A DNA stretch of 41,519 bases from Actinomycetes bacterium. GTDB lineage: Bacteria > Actinomycetota > Acidimicrobiia > Acidimicrobiales > Ilumatobacteraceae. The stretch lies in the NCBI GenBank assembly GCA_025358125.1, contig JANYKS010000001.1, positions 1 to 41,519 on the forward strand. The letters run 5' to 3'. The notes below the pieces were generated by a model, which was given only the letters and a program-made list of their open reading frames with translations, searched no databases and was not told the DNA's origin. Shown piece by piece: positions 3,422 to 38,448 of the stretch (positions are counted from its first letter, which is position 1; every line of letters starts with the position of its first letter). Both the position numbers and the translations under genes were made by a program.

Positions 3422-4962
3422 TTGCCGCATCGGAACTCGCAGCAGGGCATTTCCCGATCCTGACCGCGATCGTCGTCGTGCCCGCAGTCGGTGCGCTCGC
3501 GGTCGCGCTGATGTCGAAGCGCCGCCCCGAGTTCGTCAAGCTCACGGCGATCCTTGTCAGCGTCTTCACCGCTGCGCTCAGCGTGTGGATGCTCGCGTCG
3601 TTCAAGTCCGGCGAGGCCGACTTCCAGTTCGTCAGCAAGCACGAATGGATCAAGACGTGGGGTATCAGTTGGCACCTCGGAGTCGACGGGATCTCGCTGT
3701 TCCTCGTCGTGATCACCGGCATCTTGTTCCCGCTGTGCATCGTCGGTGTCGATCCGCAGCACGACGAAAAGCCGTACCTCGCGTGGCTGCTGCTGCTCGA
3801 GGCCGGCGTGATGGGCAGCTTTCTCAGCCTCGATCTGTTCCTGTTCTTCATCAGCTTCGAGATCGTGCTCGTCCCGATGTACTTCCTCATCGGCGGGTGG
3901 GGCCATGAGAATCGGGTGTACGCGGCGACGAAGTTCTTCATCTTCACGATGTTCGGTTCGGCGTTCATGCTCGTCGGCATCATCGCAACGGTGTTCATCG
4001 CGCGCGGCAGCGTCGGGCACATCACGTTCGACCTCGTAGAACTCGCGACCAAGGCCAACTTCGCTTCCTCCACCGCCCGATGGTTGTTCTTCGCGTTCGC
4101 AATCGCGTTTGCGGTGAAGGTGCCGATGTTCCCGCTGCACACGTGGTTGCCGGACGCACACACCCAGGCGCCGACCGCCGGCTCGGTGGTGCTGGCAGCT
4201 GTGATGCTGAAACTCGGCACCTACGGGTTCTTACGGTTCGGTCTCTATCTGTTCCCATCGGCTGCTCGCCACAGTCGGGCGATCTTCCTCACGCTCGCGG
4301 TCGTCGGCATTCTCTACGGCGCGATCGCGGCCACGATGCAAAAGGATCTCAAACGGCTCGTCGCCTATTCGTCAGTGGCCCACCTCGGCTTCATCGTGTT
4401 GGGCACATTCGCGTTCACCTCGCAGGCCTTGACCGGCAGCGTGTTGCAGATGATCAACCACGCTGTGTCGACGGGTGCGTTGTTCCTTCTCGTCGGGATG
4501 ATCTACGAGCGCCGCCACACGCGCGAGATCGCGAAGCTGAAGGGTCTCCAAAAGGTTGCGCCTGTTTTCGCCGGGGTGTTCATGATCGTGATGCTCTCCT
4601 CGATCGGTGTGCCCGGACTGAACGGTTTCGTCGGCGAGTTCCTGATCCTGATCGGATCGTTCGTCACCGCCCGGTGGTGGACCGTCGTCGCCACTTCCGG
4701 TGTCATTTTGGCGGCCGTGTATCTGCTCTGGGCGTACCAACGTGTCTTCCACGGTGAACCCGATGAGGACAACAGAACCTTTGCCGAACTGCGCTCGAAG
4801 GAGGGCATGGTGCTGCTGCCGTTCGTTGTGGCCATCGTGTTCTGCGGCATCTATCCCAAGCCCTTGATCGATCGAATCCAACCGAGCGTGAAAGCGCTCA
4901 TCACGCATGGCGGCTACTACGACCCGCAACCGGTCGTCAACAAAGTCGGGGAGCAGCCGTGA
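3418..4962 (+). CDS. nuoM: NADH-quinone oxidoreductase subunit M (NuoM)
   Basis: This 514-residue antiporter-like proton channel of complex I has about 14 membrane helices. The start chosen is the GTG at 3418, which overlaps the nuoL stop as GTGA. The frame is open nine codons further upstream, but that would run inside nuoL. Family marks include FISFEIVLVPMYFLIGGWG (TM5 glutamate), KVPMFPLHTWLPDAHTQAP (TM7 lysine and the HTWLPDAH motif), and KDLKRLVAYSSVAHLGF. The stop overlaps the GTG of nuoN. The paralogue at 22342-23946 is longer in its C-terminal loop. Confidence 0.95.
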   Translation: MIAASELAAGHFPILTAIVVVPAVGALAVALMSKRRPEFVKLTAILVSVFTAALSVWMLASFKSGEADFQFVSKHEWIKTWGISWHLGVDGISLFLVVITGILFPLCIVGVDPQHDEKPYLAWLLLLEAGVMGSFLSLDLFLFFISFEIVLVPMYFLIGGWGHENRVYAATKFFIFTMFGSAFMLVGIIATVFIARGSVGHITFDLVELATKANFASSTARWLFFAFAIAFAVKVPMFPLHTWLPDAHTQAPTAGSVVLAAVMLKLGTYGFLRFGLYLFPSAARHSRAIFLTLAVVGILYGAIAATMQKDLKRLVAYSSVAHLGFIVLGTFAFTSQALTGSVLQMINHAVSTGALFLLVGMIYERRHTREIAKLKGLQKVAPVFAGVFMIVMLSSIGVPGLNGFVGEFLILIGSFVTARWWTVVATSGVILAAVYLLWAYQRVFHGEPDEDNRTFAELRSKEGMVLLPFVVAIVFCGIYPKPLIDRIQPSVKALITHGGYYDPQPVVNKVGEQP

Positions 4963-27587: not shown

Positions 27588-28049
27588 ATGCAGAGGTCAC
27601 GCCTCATCATCACCGCCTTGACCCTCGTTGGCGCACTCGGGCTGTCCGCGTGCGGGTCCGACGCGCCGAAGTCGACTGCGACGATCGTTTCCGAGACGAC
27701 GACTGCCACTGCCACCGGTGCTGCGACGGGCGGATCGTTGACGCCGGAGGAGATCGTGGTCGACGACGCAACCGTGACGGCTGGCTTTACCAAGCTGGCG
27801 AGCACGATCGCTGTTGCGATCGCCGCAATCGGCACGCCCGACGCGAAGGCCAAGCTGGCTGTGATCGAAGACGACTGGCGCGGCTTCGAGGGAGCCGTCC
27901 GCAAGAAGGACCCGACGATCTATCTCTCCATCGAGGACCAACTCACGCCGTTGCAGCGCCAGATCGCAGCGGGCGACACGGCGACGGCGACCGCGACGGC
28001 AACCACGCTGGAGGCGATCTTCAGCCAGTACGTGGCCAAGTACCCGTGA
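27588..28049 (+). CDS. Small lipoprotein, likely accessory to the FTR1 iron permease
   Basis: This 153-residue protein has a signal peptide and lipobox (LGLSACGS, Cys at about residue 22), so it is anchored to the outer face of the membrane. After a Thr/Ala-rich linker comes a small helical domain. It contains VIEDDWRGFEGAVRKKDPTIYLSIEDQLTPLQ, which looks like the helical EfeO/imelysin-type or FTR1 N-terminal domains, with several acidic residues that could bind iron. The likeness is by eye only. The ATG at 27588 follows GGAAGGAAC; a GTG at 27582 is possible. The gene lies directly behind the iron box, and its stop overlaps the FTR1 ATG as TGATG. Confidence 0.75.
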   Translation: MQRSRLIITALTLVGALGLSACGSDAPKSTATIVSETTTATATGAATGGSLTPEEIVVDDATVTAGFTKLASTIAVAIAAIGTPDAKAKLAVIEDDWRGFEGAVRKKDPTIYLSIEDQLTPLQRQIAAGDTATATATATTLEAIFSQYVAKYP

Positions 28050-29305
28050 TGCGTCGCCTGCTCGTGCTGATCGTCGGCGCCCTCGCAGCGTTGGCGTTGC
28101 TGTCGGTCATCCCGGCTGCTCCGGCCGCTGCTGGAACGAGTCGTGACGGCGCGATCGAGCAGGTCCAAAGGGTCCGGATCAGCATCGATCTGACGCTGAC
28201 GTTGATCAAGCAGGGGCGCAGTGCCGAGGCCTTCGATGCCGCTGCCAACGGCTACCTCAAACACTTCGAACTTGTCGAGGTGCCACTACGGATCATCGAC
28301 AATGCGCTCACGATCGACGCGGAGGGTCGGTTCGCCGACATTCGTCAACTCATCCGCGATCGCGCACCGATCGACGTCATCCGCGACAGGCTGGTCGAGT
28401 TGCGCGGCGTGCTCGATTCGATCGAACGCAAACTGACGGCAACCGGCGCCGCGGCGCCTGCGCTGATCTTCGGGCAGAGCTTCCTCATCATCTTCCGCGA
28501 GGGATTCGAGGTCGTGCTGCTCGTCAGCATCCTGCTCGGCTACCTCGAGGCGGCGCGATCCACAGCGCTCATCAAGCCGATTCTGATCGGAATCGGCTTG
28601 GCAGGTGTTGCGACGGTGCTGACCGTCGTGCTGTTGCGGTTGTTGTTCCAATCGCTGCCGTTCTCGATCGAGGTGCTCGAGGGCATCACCGCGATGGTTG
28701 CCGTCGTGATGTTGTTCTACGTGTCGTTCTGGCTCGTGGCACGGATGGAGCACAAACGGTGGATGGAGTTCGTGCGGGCCCGGTTGTGGAGCGCGGTCTC
28801 ACTCGGCTCCACCGCGTCGCTGGTGCTCGTCGGTTTCACCGCCGTGTACCGCGAGGGCTTCGAGACCGCACTGTTCTACCAGGCGTTGTGGTCCTTCGGA
28901 TCCGGACTCGGCAGCTGGGTTCTCGCCGGGCTGGCGGCCGGCTTGGTCGCGCTGACGGGTGTTGCCGTCGTCATCTTCCGGCTCGGGCGTCGTGTGCCGG
29001 TCAAACGGTTCATGAGCATCGCCGTCACGTGCGTGATGATCACGTCGGTCACGTTCCTGGGTAACGCGGTCCACGCCCTGCAGGCAGGCGATCTCGTCGC
29101 ATACCACCGCCTCGACAACTGGCCGCGGCTACCGATCTTTTTGTCCCAGGCCACCGGTTACTGGCCGACGTTGCAGAGCGTTGCCGCCCAGATCGGGCTG
29201 TCGTCGATCTACATCCTCGGCGCCGTGTACATGTTGGCGATCAAGCCGCGCCGTGATCGCCGCGCCGCAAAGCCGTCCTCGCCCAGCTCACTCGTGCCGG
29301 CCTGA
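28049..29305 (+). CDS. FTR1/EfeU-type high-affinity iron permease
   Basis: This 418-residue protein has a signal peptide (residues 1-28) and an exported helical domain of about 105 residues. A permease part of about seven helices follows. The two hallmark REGFE motifs are at 150-154 (FREGFEVVLL) and 268-272 (YREGFETALF), where the acidic residues move Fe(III) or Fe(II) through the membrane. The ATG at 28049 overlaps the lipoprotein stop. An extended N-terminal extracytoplasmic domain is common in bacterial FTR1 proteins. No EfeB-type peroxidase is nearby. Control by the iron box at 27545 is likely. Confidence 0.92.
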   Translation: MRRLLVLIVGALAALALLSVIPAAPAAAGTSRDGAIEQVQRVRISIDLTLTLIKQGRSAEAFDAAANGYLKHFELVEVPLRIIDNALTIDAEGRFADIRQLIRDRAPIDVIRDRLVELRGVLDSIERKLTATGAAAPALIFGQSFLIIFREGFEVVLLVSILLGYLEAARSTALIKPILIGIGLAGVATVLTVVLLRLLFQSLPFSIEVLEGITAMVAVVMLFYVSFWLVARMEHKRWMEFVRARLWSAVSLGSTASLVLVGFTAVYREGFETALFYQALWSFGSGLGSWVLAGLAAGLVALTGVAVVIFRLGRRVPVKRFMSIAVTCVMITSVTFLGNAVHALQAGDLVAYHRLDNWPRLPIFLSQATGYWPTLQSVAAQIGLSSIYILGAVYMLAIKPRRDRRAAKPSSPSSLVPA

Positions 29306-29329
29306 AACCCGCCTGGTAGCTGAGTCTTC

Positions 29330-31363
29330 GTGGGATTTCGGGTCGGCGTCGATGTCGGTGGGACATTCACCAAGGCCGTCGCGATCGACAGCGCAACAGG
29401 CATGCTCGTCGCGCGATCGGTCGTGGCGACCACCCACACCGCTGACGCGGGGGTGGCAGCGGGTGTCGTCGAATGCGTCGCAGCCGTGGCCAAGGAGGTG
29501 GGCGCCGATCAGATCGAGTTGGTCACCCATTCGACGACCCAGGCTGTGAACGCCCTCCTCGAGGGCGACGTGGCGCGAGTCGGCGTGTTCGGTCTCGGCA
29601 GGAAGCCCGATCTCGTCAAGGTCAAACGGCGCACGTCGCTGGCCGGTGTCGAGTTGTCGCAGGGTAAGGCGTTGCAGGCCTCACCGGTGTTCCTCGACGT
29701 CACCGACGGTCTCGACGAGGATCTCCTGCGCGCCGAGCTGAAGCGGGTCATCGCTGATGGCATCGGGGCCGTCTCGGTGGCGGAGGCCTTCTCTCCCGAC
29801 GACGACCGTAACGAGCAGACCGTCGTGCGGATCGCGCGCGAGGCGGGATTGCCGGCCTGCGCAAGCAACGAGCTGTCGGGTCTCTACGGGCTCGAGCTGC
29901 GCGCCGTGACGGCTGCGGTCAACGCGTCGATCCTGCCGATTGCGGTCCGAACGGCCGGTTACGTCGAGCAGGGTGTCCGCGACGCCGACATCGCGGCCCA
30001 CGTGATGGTCATGCGCGGTGACGGCGGCGCAACCGATCTCAACGGGTTTCGCGAGGCGCCCGTACGAACGCTGTACTCAGGTCCGGCAGCATCGGTTGCC
30101 GGGGCGCTTCGCTCCGGAGCGATCACCGATGGCGTGATCGTCGAGGTCGGTGGCACCTCGACCAACGTGGCCGCGGTCCGCGACGGTCGCCCCCTGATGT
30201 CCTACGTCACCGTCGCATCGCACACCACAGCGCTCCGCGCGGTCGATGTCCGCGTGGTCGGTGTCGCCGGCGGCTCGATGCTGCGGGTCCGCAAGCGGCG
30301 GGTCCACGCCGTCGGGCCCCGCAGCGCGCACATCGCGGGTCTGCTGTACGCATGCTTTACGGATCCGGGTCTGCTCGACAGCGCGTCGGTGGAGATCATC
30401 GCGCCACGTGCCGGCGACGCCGCCGATCACCTCGTCCTGCGCTTGGCCGACGGCTCGAGAGCTGCGATCACCGTGACGTGCGCTGCAAACGCGCTCGGCA
30501 TCGCGCTGCCCGGCGATCACGCCTGGACGCCTACGTCTCGGCAGGCGGCGACGATCGCTCTCGACATCGCTGCACGGTACTGCGGGCTCGATGGTGTGGA
30601 AGTCGCCAAGCGGATCATGACCGCTGCCAGCGACGCCGTCTGCGAACTGGTCCACGCGCTCGTGTCGTCGCAAAAGCTGCGCTCGCCGACGATCGTCGCG
30701 GTCGGCGGTGCGGCCGGCGCCCTCGGCCGCCATGTTGGCGAACGGATGGGTTTGACGTGCACCGTTCCAGACGACGCTGAGATCATCTCCTCGATCGGTG
30801 ACGCGCTGTCGATGGTGCGCGCCGAACGCGAGCGCACCGTGAGCGTGCTCACCGCCGAGGTCGTGCGCCAACTCTGCGACGACGCCGAAAACGAGGCGCT
30901 CGCAGCCGGCGCAGCGCCCGGCACCGTGGAGGTTCGCGTCGAGGAGATGCCAGAGCGCGGCACCGTACGCGCGATCGCCACCGGCACGGTCGGGTTGCGC
31001 ACCGGAGCGCTCCCGGGGCAGATCCTCGTCACCGCCGATCAGCTGGCGCACCTCCACGACGCGGAGGTGCGCCAGGCCGGCGCGTTCTGGCTCGTCGCCA
31101 GACGTGGCCTGATCGCGATCTTCGACCGCTTCGGTGATCCTGTCGCGACGGTGAAAGGCGAGCGTTCCAGTGTCGGTGAGCTCGACGCGACGGTCGAGAG
31201 GCTGACCCGTTACCGCGGACCGGTAACCCTGCGCCCGACGATCTGGTTGATCAGCGCTGGTCGCATCGCCGAGCTCGCCAGCGGCGACATGATCGACGCC
31301 GCGACGGCCCTGCATGATCCGGATGACCCGTCCGAAGTTCTCGTTGTCGGAAGGAAGACCTGA
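29330..31363 (+). CDS. Hydantoinase/oxoprolinase family protein (HyuA-like), without a HyuB partner
   Basis: This 677-residue cytoplasmic protein has the ASKHA-type ATP-binding start FRVGVDVGGTFTKAVAID and the family stretches MVMRGDGGATDLNGFREAP, TLYSGPAASVAGA and VEVGGTSTNVAAVRDGRP. Members hydrolyse hydantoins, 5-oxoproline or related cyclic amides with ATP, or act as acetophenone or acetone carboxylase subunits. They usually pair with a HyuB-type subunit, which is absent here. The GTG at 29330 lies 24 bases after FTR1 and lacks a ribosome binding site. A weak TAGCTG box is seven bases upstream of the GTG. The C-terminal 200 residues are less like the family. The substrate is unknown. Confidence 0.8.
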   Translation: MGFRVGVDVGGTFTKAVAIDSATGMLVARSVVATTHTADAGVAAGVVECVAAVAKEVGADQIELVTHSTTQAVNALLEGDVARVGVFGLGRKPDLVKVKRRTSLAGVELSQGKALQASPVFLDVTDGLDEDLLRAELKRVIADGIGAVSVAEAFSPDDDRNEQTVVRIAREAGLPACASNELSGLYGLELRAVTAAVNASILPIAVRTAGYVEQGVRDADIAAHVMVMRGDGGATDLNGFREAPVRTLYSGPAASVAGALRSGAITDGVIVEVGGTSTNVAAVRDGRPLMSYVTVASHTTALRAVDVRVVGVAGGSMLRVRKRRVHAVGPRSAHIAGLLYACFTDPGLLDSASVEIIAPRAGDAADHLVLRLADGSRAAITVTCAANALGIALPGDHAWTPTSRQAATIALDIAARYCGLDGVEVAKRIMTAASDAVCELVHALVSSQKLRSPTIVAVGGAAGALGRHVGERMGLTCTVPDDAEIISSIGDALSMVRAERERTVSVLTAEVVRQLCDDAENEALAAGAAPGTVEVRVEEMPERGTVRAIATGTVGLRTGALPGQILVTADQLAHLHDAEVRQAGAFWLVARRGLIAIFDRFGDPVATVKGERSSVGELDATVERLTRYRGPVTLRPTIWLISAGRIAELASGDMIDAATALHDPDDPSEVLVVGRKT

Positions 31364-31364
31364 C

Positions 31365-31865
31365 ATGGCCCTCTACGTACCGCTGTCGCGCCGCCGCCGG
31401 AACGCCGCGTTGGTGGCGATCGCCACCCTGCTGGCCGGTCTGATCGTCGGGGCGATCGTCGGCCGATCGAGCGCCGTCACGGCATCCGAGAGTGCAGCCG
31501 CCGCACGATCGAAGGGGGACACCATTGCGACACGGATCGAAGCACTCACGATCGAGTACGAGCAGGCCGTTGCCGGCACCGGCGACACGATCGAGGGTGG
31601 TGTCCTCGACGCGCTCGACGGCATCGACAGGGACCTCGCCAAGCTGATCACCGAGGCACCGTGGCTCGGCGACGATCAGGCACAGTTGGCCCGTTCGGCC
31701 ACCACCGCGGTGCGGGCGGGCGCTGCGGCCGAGATCGACCCGGCCCAATTCGCCAATGTCGCCGCCAGTGCGGCCAAGCAGATCCGGGAGACCTTCGGCG
31801 TCAACGCGTATCCCTCGCTACTAGAGTCGGGTGGGCCGATCACAGGGGGTTCCCGGAATGACTGA
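31365..31865 (+). CDS. Small single-pass membrane protein of unknown function
   Basis: I do not recognise this 166-residue protein. It begins with a short basic stretch ([11 protein letters not shown]) and one membrane helix at about residues 12-32. An exported, mostly helical, acidic domain follows ([22 protein letters not shown] and [16 protein letters not shown]). The ATG at 31365 is preceded by GGAAGGAAG at a good distance. Its end overlaps the acetyl-CoA synthetase ATG by eight bases. Its place in the iron group and helical makeup would fit an accessory role for FTR1, but nothing proves it. Confidence 0.65.
31822..31850 (+). promoter_or_regulatory. Candidate promoter and ribosome binding site for acs
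   Basis: TAGAGT at 31822-31827, inside the end of the previous gene, could act as a -10 box. AGGGGG at about 31844-31849 lies at ribosome-binding distance from the ATG at 31858. This would let acs be made apart from the iron group. Confidence 0.3.
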
Positions 31866-33810
31866 CGCTCACGCAATCGATGCTCTCGGGTGGGAGAAGC
31901 GAGCGTTCCCGCCACCAGCGGAGTTCAAGAAGAATGCGCTCGTCACCGGCTCGTTCATGTACGACGACGCCAACGAGGACTTTCACGGGTTCTGGGCGCG
32001 TCAGGCGGCCGATCTGCTGACGTGGTCGCAGGATTGGCACACGATCTGCGAGTGGAACCTCCCTGATGCGAAGTGGTTCGTCGGCGGCACGCTGAACGTG
32101 AGCTACAACTGCCTCGATCGTCATGTGCTGGCCGGCAAAGGCGACAAGGTCGCGTTCCACTTCGAGGGCGAACCGGGCGACACCCGCACCGTCACCTATG
32201 CCGAACTGCTCGACGAGACGCAGCGGTTGGCGAATGTGCTCAAGAATCTCGGAGTCGTCAAGGGCGATCGAGTCAACATCTATCTGCCGATGATTCCCGA
32301 AGCCGCTGTCGCGATGCTGGCGTGTGCGCGTATCGGCGCTGCCCACAGTGTCGTGTTCGGTGGCTTCAGCGCCCAGTCGCTCTCGGATCGCATCAACGAT
32401 GCCGAGGCGAAGGTGCTGATCACTGCGGATGGCGGCTGGCGGCGCGGTGAGGTGTTCGCGTTGAAAGCCACCGCAGATGACGCCCTGGAATCCGCGCCAA
32501 CGATCACCGACGTCGTCGTGGTGCGCCGCGGCGGCAACGACGTGACGATGCAGGACGGCCGCGATCATTGGTATCACGAGCTGATGGCATCGGCCGACCC
32601 CGTGTGTGCGGCCGAACCAATGGACTCCGAGCAGCTGCTGTTCCTGCTCTACACCAGCGGAACCACCGGCCAGCCGAAGGGCATCATGCACACCACCGGC
32701 GGCTACCTGACCCACGTCGCGTTCACCCACAAATATGTTTTCGATCTGCGCGCTGACACCGATGTCTTCTGGTGCACGGCTGACGTCGGCTGGATCACCG
32801 GTCACAGCTACACCGTCTACGGTCCGCTCGCCAACGGCGCGACGCAGGTGATGTACGAGGGCGTGCCGAACTATCCGGCCAACGACCGGTTGTGGGCGAT
32901 CATCGAGAAGTACGGCGTGACCACCTTCTACACTGCGCCGACCGCGATTCGTACGTTCATGAAGTGGGGCCTGGAGGAACCAGCCAAGCACGATCTCTCG
33001 TCGCTGCGCCTACTCGGTTCTGTCGGCGAGCCGATCAACCCCGAGGCATGGATGTGGTACCGGGAACACATCGGCGGCGGCAGGTGCCCTGTCGTCGACA
33101 CGTGGTGGCAGACCGAGACCGGCGGGATCATGATCAGCCCATTGCCCGGTGCAACCACCACCAAGCCCGGATCTGCCACGTTCCCGCTGCCCGGCATCTT
33201 TGCCGAAGTCGTCGACGAAGAAGGCCTCCCCGTCCCTCACGGTGGCGCCGGTTATCTCACCCTCGTCCGGCCGTGGCCAGGGATGCTGCGTGGAATTTGG
33301 GGCGACCCGGAGCGGTATCGGGACACCTATTGGAGCCGGTACCCCGACCGCTACTTCGCCGGTGACGGCGCGAAGTTGGACGACGACGGCTTCCTCTGGC
33401 TGCTCGGCCGCGTTGACGACGTGATGAACGTCAGCGGCCATCGCATATCGACCATCGAGGTGGAGTCGGCGCTCGTCTCGCACCCTTGTGTCGCCGAGGC
33501 GGCAGTGGTCGCTGCCAGCGATGCAATGACGGGTCAGGCGATCATTGCCTACGTCACGCTGCGCGAGGGGCTCGACGTCGACGAGAAGGCGCTGCGAGAT
33601 CATGTCGCGGTCGAAATCGGCGCCATCGCCAAACCGAAGACGATCTACTTCACGCCTGATCTGCCCAAGACGCGCAGTGGCAAGATCATGCGTCGGCTCC
33701 TGCGCGACGTCGCGGAGGGCCGTCACCTCGGTGACACGAGCACACTTGCCGATGCCAGCGTCGTCAACGAGTTGCAACGCCGAGCTGTCGAGGAACCGTC
33801 GCACGATTGA
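31858..33810 (+). CDS. acs: Acetate--CoA ligase (acetyl-CoA synthetase)
   Basis: This 650-residue cytoplasmic enzyme activates acetate to acetyl-AMP and then acetyl-CoA, using ATP. It has the P-loop [11 protein letters not shown] starting at residue 265, [15 protein letters not shown] with the family Trp-containing acetate pocket, and a C-terminal [11 protein letters not shown] with Lys609, the lysine that acetylation switches off in Acs. Length is normal. The ATG at 31858 is preferred over a GTG at 31831 because AGGGGG stands before it. It overlaps the small membrane protein by eight bases. Confidence 0.95.
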
Positions 33811-33878
33811 TAATTCCTTAACTGATCGGTGTTGTGTGCCGATACCCCTTTGTGGCCTCAGAATTCAACGGCGGGAAA

Positions 33879-35858
33879 ATGGCGGGCGCGGTCGAGGTTC
33901 ATCCGCGCGCGGAGCCCGTCCCGGTGCCCGACGCCGACGATCTGCGAACTCGGATGCGTCTGCGGCTGGCGATGAACCAGTCGGCGGCAGCGCGCGGTGC
34001 GACGAGTCCGGCCGGCGTTGAATCGTCGACAACGGGGGCGACCCAGGCTGGTCACTCCGACGTCAGCCAGATGGTGTGGAATTCGGTGATGGAGTCGTTG
34101 TCGACGAGTACCGCGCTCTTCCAACTGGCCAACGCCGAGCCACGACAGCCAGAGCCGCCGCCCGTCGCCCATCCGAGCCCCCCTCCGGTCTTCGTCCCTC
34201 AGCCGCTCTACGCGGAACCGTCTACTTCGTCGCTGTCCGACCAGCAAGCGATCGCCGGCCTGTTCGCGCCTGGCGCCCGGCCCCAGTTCGCAGGGTTGCC
34301 GGCGCCCGCGGGCCCGCCAATTGCACGAGCGTTCGATGATCTCGGAGTCATGACCCCGCAACCGGTCTTGGTCGCGGGGCCCGGCCCGACGACTGCAGCG
34401 AACGGGCTACCGGCGATGATCGTGCCCGCGATGCCGGTGATCGCGCCACCGGTCAGGTCCGCGCCTGCGCCGCGCCCGAATCACATGCGTGCCGGTGAGG
34501 GCCTGCCAACACTGACGCCGCGTGCCACGACCAAGAAAAAGAAGCGTCGCCCGTTCCGGGTCTTGTTCTCGTTGCTGTTGGTCCTGGCGTTGCTCGCCGG
34601 AGCCGGGTACGCCGGGTGGTACGTCTTCCTCAAGAGCAAGGTGACCTGGGCCGGCGATGTGAAGCCGCTGGCGACCTTCGTCGAAAAGACCGTTCACCGC
34701 ACGTTCATCTCGAACATCGCTGTCGTCACCCTGTCGGCGCCCGAGTACGAGGTCAAGCTCGGGATCGAGGTCCTCGCCAGGACCTACGCCGGCGCCGACG
34801 GCAGTCTGAGCGCGCTGAACGCCGTCGGCATCGTCAACGGCGTGCCGGAGCCGAGCGTGATCGGGCACCTCGTCGCAACGACCGTCACGTCGTTCTACCA
34901 CCCGAGCGACAAGACCATCTATCGCGTGCTTGGTTCGACCGCGGTGTACGAAGTGTCGATGCTCAAGGCGTTGACCGTCGCGCTCGCGGATCAAAGTGTG
35001 CAATGGTCGAAACAGTGGCCGACACTGAACGACTCGCAGCGCGTCGGCTACAGCGCGCTGATCGATGGGGTGGGCGAGCGGGTTGTGCTCGCCAGGTTCA
35101 AGACCAAGCCCGATCTCGATGGCGCCGGCTTGTCGGCCAAGGACTACCCGGTCTATCTCTCCTCCGTGATCGGCTCGGTCGAGATCGGCGGCAGTCGATT
35201 CCCGACCGCCCCCGAGACCGACTTGATGAAGGATCTCGCCGCGCCACCAAACGATGCCGCGGTGTTCGACCTGGCGAGAACGACCCCCAAGAGCCCGGTC
35301 GTCGTGCCGCCGGTCTCGAGCGGCGGCGAAAAGCCCCGCGAACTCGGCATGCAGTTCTGGTTCGAGACGATGTTGCCCGTGCTGGGAGCCGATGGGGCCA
35401 GGGCCGCGGCGCTGCTCTGGGACGGGGACAGCTCGGTCACCGCGGTCGTCAACGGCCAAGCGTGTCTGAGATCCAACATCGTCGCCGCCAGCCCCGAGGC
35501 GCAGGCCGCGCTCGCCACGGCGCTCGGGCAATGGGGCGGGAAACGTCCCGCGTCCAGCATTGCAGCGGTCACGAGCGAGCCGGCGAACGTCGTCGCGGTC
35601 TTCGTCTGTGCGCCGGCCGAGGCGACGCAGGAACCGGCGCCGGCAGACGGTGGAGCCCAGCTCTACTCGGCCGCTCGCAAGGAGCGGGTCTTCGCCGACC
35701 AGCTCATCCTCCTCGGGCTCCCGGCGACGGCCAGTTCACGGTCATGCGCGGTCACGGCGTTCCGCGGCGGCAGCGCTGCGAACTTCCAGGACGGCTCGAC
35801 CGACCCGGAGGTCATCACAGCGATGAACGACGTGATTTCGTTCTGCAAAGGCGCCTGA
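33879..35858 (+). CDS. Membrane-anchored protein with degenerate metallopeptidase-like exported domain (paralogue A)
   Basis: This 659-residue protein has about 220 cytoplasmic residues rich in Pro and Ala, a basic stop (TKKKKRRPFR), and one membrane helix at about 228-250. An exported domain of about 400 residues follows. That domain follows the pattern of actinobacterial HExxH metallopeptidase-like proteins: SAPEYEVKLG, then SFYHPSDKTIYRVLG (usually FYDPxxxxLxVRG), then KALTVALADQ where family members read HELTHALxDQ, then ALIDGVGERV (usually ALVEGDA) and APPNDAAVFDLA (usually PPTSTEQVLHP). The zinc ligands are absent (363-367 read KALTV). A GTG at 33834 is an alternative start. It lies 73 bases before paralogue B. 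Function is unknown. Confidence 0.7.
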   Translation: MAGAVEVHPRAEPVPVPDADDLRTRMRLRLAMNQSAAARGATSPAGVESSTTGATQAGHSDVSQMVWNSVMESLSTSTALFQLANAEPRQPEPPPVAHPSPPPVFVPQPLYAEPSTSSLSDQQAIAGLFAPGARPQFAGLPAPAGPPIARAFDDLGVMTPQPVLVAGPGPTTAANGLPAMIVPAMPVIAPPVRSAPAPRPNHMRAGEGLPTLTPRATTKKKKRRPFRVLFSLLLVLALLAGAGYAGWYVFLKSKVTWAGDVKPLATFVEKTVHRTFISNIAVVTLSAPEYEVKLGIEVLARTYAGADGSLSALNAVGIVNGVPEPSVIGHLVATTVTSFYHPSDKTIYRVLGSTAVYEVSMLKALTVALADQSVQWSKQWPTLNDSQRVGYSALIDGVGERVVLARFKTKPDLDGAGLSAKDYPVYLSSVIGSVEIGGSRFPTAPETDLMKDLAAPPNDAAVFDLARTTPKSPVVVPPVSSGGEKPRELGMQFWFETMLPVLGADGARAAALLWDGDSSVTAVVNGQACLRSNIVAASPEAQAALATALGQWGGKRPASSIAAVTSEPANVVAVFVCAPAEATQEPAPADGGAQLYSAARKERVFADQLILLGLPATASSRSCAVTAFRGGSAANFQDGSTDPEVITAMNDVISFCKGA

Positions 35859-35930
35859 ACTGCCCGAACGTGGCGTTGTCCAATTGTCGCCGGCATTCAA
35901 GTCGCCAGCACTCCGTGCCGAAAGATCAGC

Positions 35931-37787
35931 ATGAGCGATTTACCCGAGAAGGGTGTCGAGCGCGGCGAGTCTCCAGTGGCTGGGGACGCTCCCGCCGGCC
36001 AACAGCACCTCGATCGTCGCGCCCCGTTCGACTTCTCGCTCAAGGTCAGCGTCCCTTTGGTGCGCACGACGGTCGTGCCGTCCGGCGCACCAGCTCCGGT
36101 TTCTCTCGGCGTGATCGCACCGGCGGCGACGCCGGTACCTGCGGTATCTTCTGACGTGATCGCACCGACGGCGACGCCGGTACCTGCGGTATCTCCTGAC
36201 GTGATCGCACCGACGGCGACGCCGGTACCTGCGATATCTCCTGCCGTGGCGTTGCCGGTCGCTGCGCCGGTTCCCCTGACTCCGACATTGCCGACCCCAC
36301 CGGCTGCTACGACGGTCACGACCTCGACCCCAGGCGTGTCGAAGTCGCTCGCGAGGACGACCGAGGTCAAGGTCAACGTCAAGGCCAGGGCCGAGCCCAA
36401 GCCACCGAAGCGGCGAACGGGCGTGCTGCTGCTGATCATGTTGGTGTTGATGCTCGCCCTCTCGGCCGCGGCTACCTATGTGGTCGCGACGCGCGGCAAG
36501 GGCTCCGCCGCCTCGAACAAATGGGCACCATCGGTCCAACCCCTGCAGAAGTTCGTCGAGGCAACGATGCGCCACCCGTTCACCAAGGTGGTTCCCGTCG
36601 TGTCGTTGTCGCGAGCCGAATACGAGGCCAAGCTCGGCAATTTCGCGCTTCAACGAGTGCCCCAGGACGCGAAAGGCGCCTACAGCGGTTTGCGTTCGCT
36701 CGGGCTCCTCGACCAGGCGCCCAAGGCGAGCGACGCCGGAGCGTTCGTGGCCGCGACCCGCACGGCCTTCTACGACCCGCAGACAGCGAACGTCTATCAG
36801 ATCGAGGGCGAATCCGGTACGTACCACGACGGCAACGTGATGGCCGCGCTCGCCGTCGCTCTGATCGATCAGTACAAGTCGTGGTCGACCCGTATCGCCA
36901 AGTTGTCACCGGCGCAACGATTGGGATATTTGTCGTTGATCGAGGGCGGTGGACAGTACGTCGTGCTCGCCAAGTCAGAGGCCGACAAGGATTTCGCGGC
37001 GACATACAGCGACGAATACAACAAGCGGCTCGGTTCCCGCTCCGGCCTGGGGCTCGCGTTCACGCCGTGGCTGGTCGGGGTGTTCGACCTCCCGATCGCG
37101 AACGGTGTCGGTATGGTCACGCGAGCGGCCGCCGGCGATCCGATCGATGCGGTCGAGGTGCCGACGAGCGACGCGGCGGTACTCGACGCATCGCGAGGCA
37201 TTCCCGCGTCGGCGGGCGCGACGACACCGGAGCCGTCGACGTTGGGCATGTATGCCTGGTACAGCATCCTGGCTGCGGCCATCGGCCCGGACAAGGCGTT
37301 CGTACTTACTTCGGGATGGACCGGCGATTCGCTCCAATACGTCGACAACAAAGGCGTCGGCTGCATCCGGGCATCGGTCGTGGCCAAGGACCCGGCGAGC
37401 CACGCGGCGCTGCTCGCCGGGCTTCAGGAGTGGGCAGCAACCCGACCGGAATCGGCCACCACCGCCGTGAACGGGGTCGCAACGGTGACGACGGTGACGG
37501 CCTGCGACCCGAGCGGGTCGGCTCTGGCCGCGACGGCTCAGACAGTCGGTAACGAGTTCGAGTTCCGGGTCGTGAAGGAGCAGATCCTGCTCAAACAGCT
37601 CAGTGTCCTCGGCATGGGCCTCGTCGCTCCGGCCGTCGTTTGCGCGATCAACTCGTACCGCACGGATGGCCTCAATGGTTGGGAGACCGATCAGGCATCG
37701 TTCGGATCGAAGTCGTTCGGAGCGATCTCCGATGCACAGCGGAACAGCCTCCAGAACCTCGCGGTGGTCTGCGGCCAGGCATCCTGA
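35931..37787 (+). CDS. Membrane-anchored protein with degenerate metallopeptidase-like exported domain (paralogue B)
   Basis: This 618-residue paralogue of the preceding protein has a Pro/Val/Thr-rich cytoplasmic part with three 15-residue repeats, one membrane helix at about 165-186, and an exported domain. Matching blocks are PLQKFVEATMRHPFTKVVPV, SRAEYEAKLG, AFYDPQTANVYQIEG, AALAVALIDQ (305-314, in place of HELTHALxDQ), SLIEGGGQYVVLA and VPTSDAAVLDASRG. The FYDP and LIEG blocks are closer to active family members than in paralogue A, but the HExxH site is lost here too. The C-terminal half has GCIRASVVAKDPASHAALLAGL, like the CVR-type end of the family. The ATG at 35931 is preferred. The gene converges on yajQ. 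Confidence 0.7.
   Translation: MSDLPEKGVERGESPVAGDAPAGQQHLDRRAPFDFSLKVSVPLVRTTVVPSGAPAPVSLGVIAPAATPVPAVSSDVIAPTATPVPAVSPDVIAPTATPVPAISPAVALPVAAPVPLTPTLPTPPAATTVTTSTPGVSKSLARTTEVKVNVKARAEPKPPKRRTGVLLLIMLVLMLALSAAATYVVATRGKGSAASNKWAPSVQPLQKFVEATMRHPFTKVVPVVSLSRAEYEAKLGNFALQRVPQDAKGAYSGLRSLGLLDQAPKASDAGAFVAATRTAFYDPQTANVYQIEGESGTYHDGNVMAALAVALIDQYKSWSTRIAKLSPAQRLGYLSLIEGGGQYVVLAKSEADKDFAATYSDEYNKRLGSRSGLGLAFTPWLVGVFDLPIANGVGMVTRAAAGDPIDAVEVPTSDAAVLDASRGIPASAGATTPEPSTLGMYAWYSILAAAIGPDKAFVLTSGWTGDSLQYVDNKGVGCIRASVVAKDPASHAALLAGLQEWAATRPESATTAVNGVATVTTVTACDPSGSALAATAQTVGNEFEFRVVKEQILLKQLSVLGMGLVAPAVVCAINSYRTDGLNGWETDQASFGSKSFGAISDAQRNSLQNLAVVCGQAS
36111..36245 (+). repeat. Three 45-bp tandem repeats in paralogue B
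   Basis: Units at 36111-36155, 36156-36200 and 36201-36245 encode VIAPAATPVPAVSSD, VIAPTATPVPAVSPD and VIAPTATPVPAISPA. Only a few bases differ between units. They lie in the cytoplasmic linker before the membrane helix and probably expand or contract by slippage or recombination. Confidence 0.9.
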
Positions 37788-37802
37788 GGGGTCAGTCCCT
37801 CA
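37785..37802. terminator. Hairpin across convergent stops of paralogue B and yajQ
   Basis: TGAGGG and CCCTCA pair around a six-base loop. The left arm includes the stop of paralogue B and the stem-loop spans the stop of yajQ. The four-base gap leaves room for little else, so it may act in both directions. No T-run is present. Confidence 0.35.
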
Positions 37803-38280
37803 TGTTGTTGAACTGCAATGGGATCTCGAGATCGAGTCCCTTGAGCAGTGTCATCACGGCCTGGAGATCGTCGCGCTTCTTGGCGGTGACACGCACGGAT
37901 TCACCCTGGGTTTGGCTGCTGACACCCTTGGGACCCTTGTCCTTGATCGTCCGGTTGATCTCGCGCGCTTTGTCGCCGGAGATGCCGACCTTAATGGTCA
38001 CCACCTGGCGAACGGTATTCTGGGTGGCCTCCTCGACCTTGCCGTATTCGACGCCCTTGAGCGAGATGCTGCGCTTGACCAACTTCTCCTCGACGACGAG
38101 CCGCAGTGCGGCGAGACGGTCCTCGCTGACCGTGCGCAGGGTGAGGATGAGGTCGTTGTGCTCGATCGAGGAGTCGGTATTCTTGAAGTCGAAGCGATTG
38201 TTGATCTCGCGCTGAGCCTGATCGATGGCGTTGCGGACCTCTTGGCGATCGACTTCGGAAACGATGTCAAAACTTGGCAT
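37792..38280 (-). CDS. YajQ family nucleotide-binding protein
   Basis: This 162-residue cytoplasmic protein covers the whole YajQ/DUF520 family. It begins MPSFDIVSEVDRQEVRNAIDQA and has FDFKNTDSSIEHNDLILTL, SISLKGVEYG and VRVTAKKRDDLQAVM, with a terminal LQFNNMRD. Members bind cyclic di-GMP in some proteobacteria and RNA or nucleotides in others; the role in actinobacteria is unknown. The ATG at 38280 sits six bases behind a TACTCT box on the minus strand. Confidence 0.95.
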   Translation of the reverse strand: MPSFDIVSEVDRQEVRNAIDQAQREINNRFDFKNTDSSIEHNDLILTLRTVSEDRLAALRLVVEEKLVKRSISLKGVEYGKVEEATQNTVRQVVTIKVGISGDKAREINRTIKDKGPKGVSSQTQGESVRVTAKKRDDLQAVMTLLKGLDLEIPLQFNNMRD

Positions 38281-38363: not shown

Positions 38364-38448
38364 GGGTCGGTACCCAAGCGGCCAAAGGGAGCAGACTGTA
38401 AATCTGCCGGCTCAGCCTTCGAAGGTTCGAATCCTTCCCGGCCCACCA
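38364..38448 (+). tRNA. tRNA-Tyr (anticodon GTA), CCA encoded
   Basis: The acceptor arms are GGGTCGG and CCGGCCC with one G-T pair. The anticodon arm is GCAGA-CTGTAAA-TCTGC with GTA. A long variable arm (class II tRNA) follows, then the T arm GAAGG-TTCGAAT-CCTTC. Discriminator A and an encoded CCA end the gene. An upstream TACGCT at 38333-38338 could be its -10 box. Confidence 0.96.

Follow-up and report, generated by a model that had tools for sequence, protein, structure and literature searches.

Tandem membrane-anchored proteins with a destroyed metallopeptidase site, preceded by putative sigma-28/WhiG-class promoter motifs, in the acsA-yajQ interval of an Ilumatobacteraceae genome

The window analysed here, a stretch of 41,519 nucleotides at the beginning of contig JANYKS010000001.1 from an actinomycete of the Ilumatobacteraceae (assembly GCA_025358125.1), carries two tandem genes, A (33852..35858, +; 668 residues) and B (35931..37787, +; 618 residues), each encoding a dead HExxH-peptidase-like membrane protein. 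They occupy a slot bordered on the left by an acsA gene of the acetyl-CoA synthetase type (31831..33810, +) and on the right by yajQ (DUF520; 37792..38280, -), after which come tRNA-Tyr (38364-38448) and further conserved genes. The longest open reading frame of A spans 33834..35858 (+) from a GTG codon and contains an internal ATG at 33879, which a preliminary description of this DNA had taken as the start. Since the homologues have a common start and a common upstream motif at GTG 33852, this codon is most likely the start of A, and the position taken earlier lies nine codons too late.

The two proteins are paralogues arranged in tandem, identical at 33% of positions over 389 matched residues (E 1e-53). 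Alignment, hydropathy and composition agree with the common layout proposed in the preliminary description, namely a Pro-rich tail (16% proline in A, 18% in B), a single hydrophobic helix preceded by a cluster of Lys and Arg, and an outer domain of about 400-420 residues. The transmembrane helix of A, predicted from hydropathy after KKKKRRPFR, lies at 34560..34628 (+) and that of B at 36420..36485 (+); the Pro-rich tail would be inside and the dead domain outside. The outer pseudo-peptidase domain of A (34644..35855, +) has the zinc site KALTVALADQ (34965-34994) and an Asp in place of the third-ligand Glu, while that of B (36519..37784, +) has AALAVALIDQ (36843-36872) and retains this Glu. For the conserved blocks, A has FYHPSD and LIDGV where B has FYDPQT and LIEGG. 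These site and block readings, as well as a block order common with intact relatives, stand as first described.

A Pfam search of both proteins gave zero family matches. In NCBIfam, A had no match and B a single one, the Hvo_1808 family surface protein NF038145 (E 0.011, 15-16 bits), so that neither protein reaches the curated cut-off of 200 bits. Among about 5.8 billion clustered proteins (7998 candidates scored), the outer domain of B had 16 relatives, one of them B itself or a near copy and none with a precomputed Pfam domain. Comparison of profiles was more telling: when outer-domain profiles built from 15 dead and 7 intact members were aligned with hhalign, they matched over 404 columns with a probability of 99.9% and an E-value of 3e-36. 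A mixed alignment matched NF038145 through 11 of its 32 members at E <= 0.1 (best 1.3e-42) and Pfam DUF6782 more weakly, through 5 of 32 (best 5.6e-8). The outer domain of B was modelled by AlphaFold2 with a predicted local distance difference test score (pLDDT) of 88.8 and a predicted template modelling score (pTM) of 0.90. The best solved match of this model, and also of the model of an intact relative, was 3cmn, the structure of a putative hydrolase from Chloroflexus aurantiacus which we take to carry HExxH; zinc peptidases came next. Foldseek against the PDB gave no match with E < 0.001, its best rows being designed proteins. On this structural evidence, a gluzincin fold is a candidate assignment only. 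The full-length profile similarity places A and B as homologues within the HExxH-peptidase-like family, in line with the relation first suggested. Together with the site counts given below, the profile alignment rules out a chance likeness and makes a solid sequence-based case that A and B descend from relatives of HExxH zinc peptidases, with the zinc site destroyed.

We examined 50 copies from the acsA-yajQ slot, taken from 44 genomes and nine genera of one taxonomic family, A and B of the window included. In alignment, HELTHALQDQ of intact relatives stands over KALTVALADQ of A and AALAVALIDQ of B. None of the 50 slot copies has both zinc His (one keeps only the first, another only the second), the catalytic Glu has become Ala in 47 and Ser in two, with Glu in one, and the third-ligand position is Asp in 21, Glu in 14 and another residue in 15. 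The HExxH and downstream Glu that mark an active enzyme are therefore missing as a set from both A and B. Other conserved residues persist: all 50 slot copies have the Gln of ALxDQ, and 48 have the FYD Tyr. No replacement metal-type residue is shared at the three site positions checked. Two cysteines are retained in 50/50 slot copies and, since they are present in all 17 non-slot copies too, this pair is likely structural. One slot copy (L102 of genome G239) reads DALAHALLDQ, with one zinc His kept, and could be an intermediate.

Sixty relatives and the window's own genome were searched, and 22 of these 61 genomes contained matches. The matches came from members of the window's genus, from other genera of the family as single copies, and from other families of the order. 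HExxH is kept in 12 of the 17 non-slot copies, and all 12 have an intact zinc site; the other five are dead and all belong to genus g11. Copies from other families have HExxH in six of seven cases, as does that of G030 within the same family, whereas the frame of the seventh (L023, G060) begins inside the site with no HExxH visible and was excluded from the intact and dead counts. Further copies retrieved from outside the family have HExxH in 25/25, drawn from 65 matching genomes there (in a sample of 297 genomes, 72 matched, 7 of them in the family). The dead g11 copies, L092, L093, L096, L114 and L115, lie outside the slot, with sites such as VQLTIALDEQ and VYLTQAVADQ, and form a second dead lineage. 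In a tree computed without the zinc columns, the 50 slot copies fall on one side of a branch with a Shimodaira-Hasegawa-like approximate likelihood ratio (SH-aLRT) of 100, and two changes of state are needed, the second in g11. By this tree, the dead slot lineage is one clade at one fixed locus and the g11 copies are an independent loss of the zinc site.

Both slot borders were on the available stretch for 39 of the 50 slot copies and one border for the other 11; the frames were open in the copies examined. The A-type copies form one clade (100/99), the B-type copies another (100/99), and both jointly a third (100/99). The slot gene was duplicated in the window's genus. The preliminary description had pictured the inactive pair as kept side by side. 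Loss of the zinc site is indeed kept throughout the slot, but the pair only in part: A and B occur together in G000, G001, G002, G006, G007 and G008, while G003-G005 have A only. Since the A of these three genomes nests inside the A clade, a loss of B is implied. An assembly gap hiding B was ruled out for G003, where about 30 bases separate A and yajQ, and for G004, where about 2 kb with other open reading frames but no profile match lie between them; by eye, the latter frames resemble extracytoplasmic function (ECF) sigma, SnoaL and GNAT proteins. Upstream of acsA, the window carries at 27650-31865 an FTR1 permease, a hydantoinase-like protein and a 183-residue membrane protein, a block found elsewhere, among 14 loci compared, only in G003 and G004.

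In five close pairs, the ratio of nonsynonymous to synonymous substitution rates (dN/dS) of the outer domain was 0.06-0.13; four distant pairs, partly saturated, gave 0.19-0.37. These estimates indicate strong purifying selection on the outer domains and show genes of the A/B type to be functional, with the strongest constraint on the dead domain.

The slot genes are also set apart by what precedes them. A putative sigma-28/WhiG-class promoter motif lies before A at 33817..33845 (+), with a -35 element CTTAA (33817-33821), 16 bases and a -10 element GCCGATAC (33838-33845), and another before B at 35896..35924 (+), with TTCAA (35896-35900), 16 bases and GCCGAAAG (35917-35924). In A, B and their relatives, CTCAA, CTTAA or TTCAA is followed after about 16 bases by GCCGATA or a similar sequence, and the start codon comes next. 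When a start codon was required 7-13 bases after GCCGA, the motif was found before 39/50 slot copies (the A copy of G008 counted from its longer locus) against 0.13 expected from shuffles in two-base blocks, and before 0/17 non-slot copies (0.06 expected). As a pattern in the DNA, this finding is solid, and the presence of such a candidate motif directly before the start codons of slot genes is new here. A FliA/WhiG sigma factor scores above the curated cut-off in 9/9 genus genomes. Two hallmarks of a WhiG/sigma-28 regulon, a flagellar-class promoter at the gene start and a WhiG/FliA sigma factor in the genome, are thus present together.

Across the nine genus genomes, the pattern stands before a start codon at 74 places, against 5 for the reversed pattern; in ten genomes of other genera, a stricter pattern gave 35 matches against one. 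Only part of the 74 matches was retrieved, and several look like chance. Prepilin-like genes stand behind the motif in three genus genomes (G000, G001, G003) and in G157; their N_methyl matches exceed the cut-off in G001 and G157 but fall short of it in G000 and G003. A cluster of T2SSF, T2SSE, DUF429 and prepilin-like genes lies at 583-5952 of L208, which belongs to the window's own genome, with the motif at 4772 before the prepilins. Roadblock/LC7-like genes follow the motif in six of the nine genus genomes (L170, L187, L191, L192, L216, L219) and in G157 (L221); PF03259 was found in both proteins submitted to Pfam, one of the six and that of G157. In Myxococcus, MglB-type Roadblock/LC7 proteins steer pilus polarity. 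Other genes behind the motif encode M23 proteins and peptidoglycan-binding/M15 proteins. By its predicted content, the motif-linked gene set is suggestive of type IV pili and of remodelling of the wall. A predicted membrane peptide of 29 residues is also encoded behind the motif in six genus genomes (L207 193; L200 554; L203 182; L196 1501; L215 195; L217 163). About 1.7 kb from its gene in G007 lies a relative with an intact site, HELTHALDDQ (L091, 5858-7198).

The tails contain two short motifs, QMVWNSVMESL in A (W motif, 34068..34100, +) and APFDFSLK in B (F motif, 36021..36044, +). They were counted as [LM]SW[DE]SVV or VWNSV and as FDFxLKL or FQFDLGG, respectively, expressions written after viewing the sequences; the counts are lower bounds, with the helix misplaced or unfound in five rows and some tails cut. 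The W motif is present in 5/9 A tails (0.07 expected from shuffles) and 0/6 B tails (0.01 expected), the F motif in 0/9 A tails and 6/6 B tails (0.38 expected in each case), and among 35 single-copy tails each is found in 17 (0.15 expected for W, 0.78 for F). This distribution suggests that docking motifs once carried by a single ancestral tail were shared out between the duplicates. A strict partition is weakened, however, by LRxRMRLRL, which A carries where single copies carry FDFxLRL and which may be a changed F motif.

Known systems help to place these genes. The HExxH-intact relatives, NF038145 and more weakly DUF6782, have the fold, the block order, the Cys pair and ALxDQ in common with A and B, but differ by HELTHALQDQ-like sites and EGDA-like third ligands and by lacking the upstream motif throughout; these intact relatives were not seen in the slot. 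ADAM11, ADAM22 and ADAM23 of animals consist of an outside dead metallopeptidase domain, one helix and an inside tail, and are by this layout the nearest functional analogue of A and B. They come from an unrelated peptidase family and another kingdom. ADAM22 is described as a ligand receptor scaffolded by PSD-95 (PMC11266112). For the promoters, the parallel is the switch formed by WhiG, RsiG and cyclic di-GMP (c-di-GMP) in Rubrobacter and Streptomyces. According to the Rubrobacter study, WhiG is held by RsiG with c-di-GMP, type IV pilus genes account for 3 of 12 mapped promoters, and twin-motif RsiG occurs in three of four Acidimicrobiales species (PMC8325347). The flagellar/WhiG consensus quoted there, TAAA at -35 and GCCGATAA at -10, resembles the motif of A and B, whose -35 element is nevertheless CTCAA, CTTAA or TTCAA. 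The word peptidase is absent from the main text of that paper, and none of the papers listed by searches of the open PMC literature describes the A/B pair; a search there for pseudopeptidases of Acidimicrobiia listed no paper, and Hvo_1808 does not occur in the papers listed for it.

Taken together, we favour, with a probability of about 55%, the reading that A and B are non-catalytic transmembrane receptors or scaffolds, belonging to the same programme as type IV pili and placed behind sigma-28/WhiG-class motifs. Once free, WhiG would drive transcription of both genes, each from its own promoter and with a very short leader or none, probably together with the pili and perhaps under c-di-GMP control. 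In the membrane, the Pro-rich tails would face inward, and the dead peptidase domains, each with a C-terminal alpha/beta domain, outward. Having lost the ability to cut, the old peptide cleft could bind a peptide, cell-wall or pilus ligand, and the W motif of A and the F motif of B could dock cytosolic partners. A more specific version, which we put forward only tentatively, is that A and B form a heteromeric receptor of the WhiG/c-di-GMP programme, with a non-cutting cleft and divided W/F docking, that would pass surface contact on to the pilus or wall machinery.

Several observations weigh against this reading. The motif matches are consensus matches, related copies are non-independent, and no match was found for 11 of the 50 slot copies, three of these at contig ends. 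Five of the 39 matches belong to g20 copies with an upstream in-frame ATG and an unsure start, and some of the 74 genus matches lie inside coding sequence, for instance a repeated one in an smc-like gene. The M15 and M23 genes would be equally in keeping with a programme of wall remodelling and with one of pili. For RsiG, no E(X)3S(X)2R(X)3Q(X)3D motif was found in the five own-genome stretches to which the scan was limited. The tails change quickly (dN/dS of 0.18-0.58 for close pairs and 0.21-0.50 for distant ones), their motifs are not universal among single copies, and the W motif is missing in the A of G002, G006 and G008. Furthermore, the dead profile matched 65 of 221 genomes of the family, some via intact or second copies, and gave no match in the other 156, and the slot is empty in G009, G016, G029 and G030, its borders lying 3-104 bases apart with no gene between; a profile match was likewise lacking in another 16 acsA-yajQ intervals, of which 4 belong to the family and 12 to other families. 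Because of the empty slots and the 156 genomes, the slot gene is regarded as dispensable in much of the family.

The same data can be read in other ways. A and B could be sensors of cell-wall or envelope stress whose dead domain binds peptidoglycan stem peptides or an envelope peptide and whose tails signal inward, the pili being connected through shared regulation only. We consider this rather unlikely: the tails have no known sensor or anti-sigma domain in Pfam, and the likeness to RseB is at background level and absent for B. It is also conceivable that the two proteins join an active family peptidase in mixed complexes and so regulate it, a role described as common for pseudo-peptidases (PMC11266112), and G007 indeed has A, B and an intact copy together. 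A profile of intact members, however, found such a copy in only this one of the nine genus genomes and none in the window's own (93% complete); second copies in the g11 genomes examined are dead as well (5/5), and G009 and G030 combine an intact copy with an empty slot. This leaves the idea quite improbable. The interpretation given in the preliminary description, an inactive pair with a binding, scaffold or regulatory role, is supported.

That the outer domains remain enzymes, using a different metal site or a different chemistry in the former cleft, could explain their strong constraint and the persistence of the ALxDQ Gln and the FYD Tyr. We give this little credence, since Glu is changed to Ala in 47/50 copies, no new metal-type residue is shared at the three checked positions, and the shared Cys pair also occurs in every non-slot copy. 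Finally, lost zinc sites and fast-evolving tails are what decaying leftovers of an old peptidase gene might show, but the outer-domain dN/dS of 0.06-0.13 in close pairs is a strong counter-argument, to which open frames, the motif in 39/50 copies and one clade across nine genera are added; the probability of decay is practically negligible.

The receptor or scaffold reading apart, the slot genes offer a clear example from nature of a metallopeptidase that became a non-enzyme, with one clade at a fixed locus, intact cousins elsewhere, a near-uniform change of Glu to Ala and strong constraint. Promoter sequence would tie this dead clade to a sigma class that is linked with pili in Rubrobacter and with sporulation in Streptomyces. 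The analysis also supplies candidate co-regulated genes, namely those for the prepilin-like and Roadblock/LC7 proteins, the wall hydrolases and the 29-residue membrane peptide.

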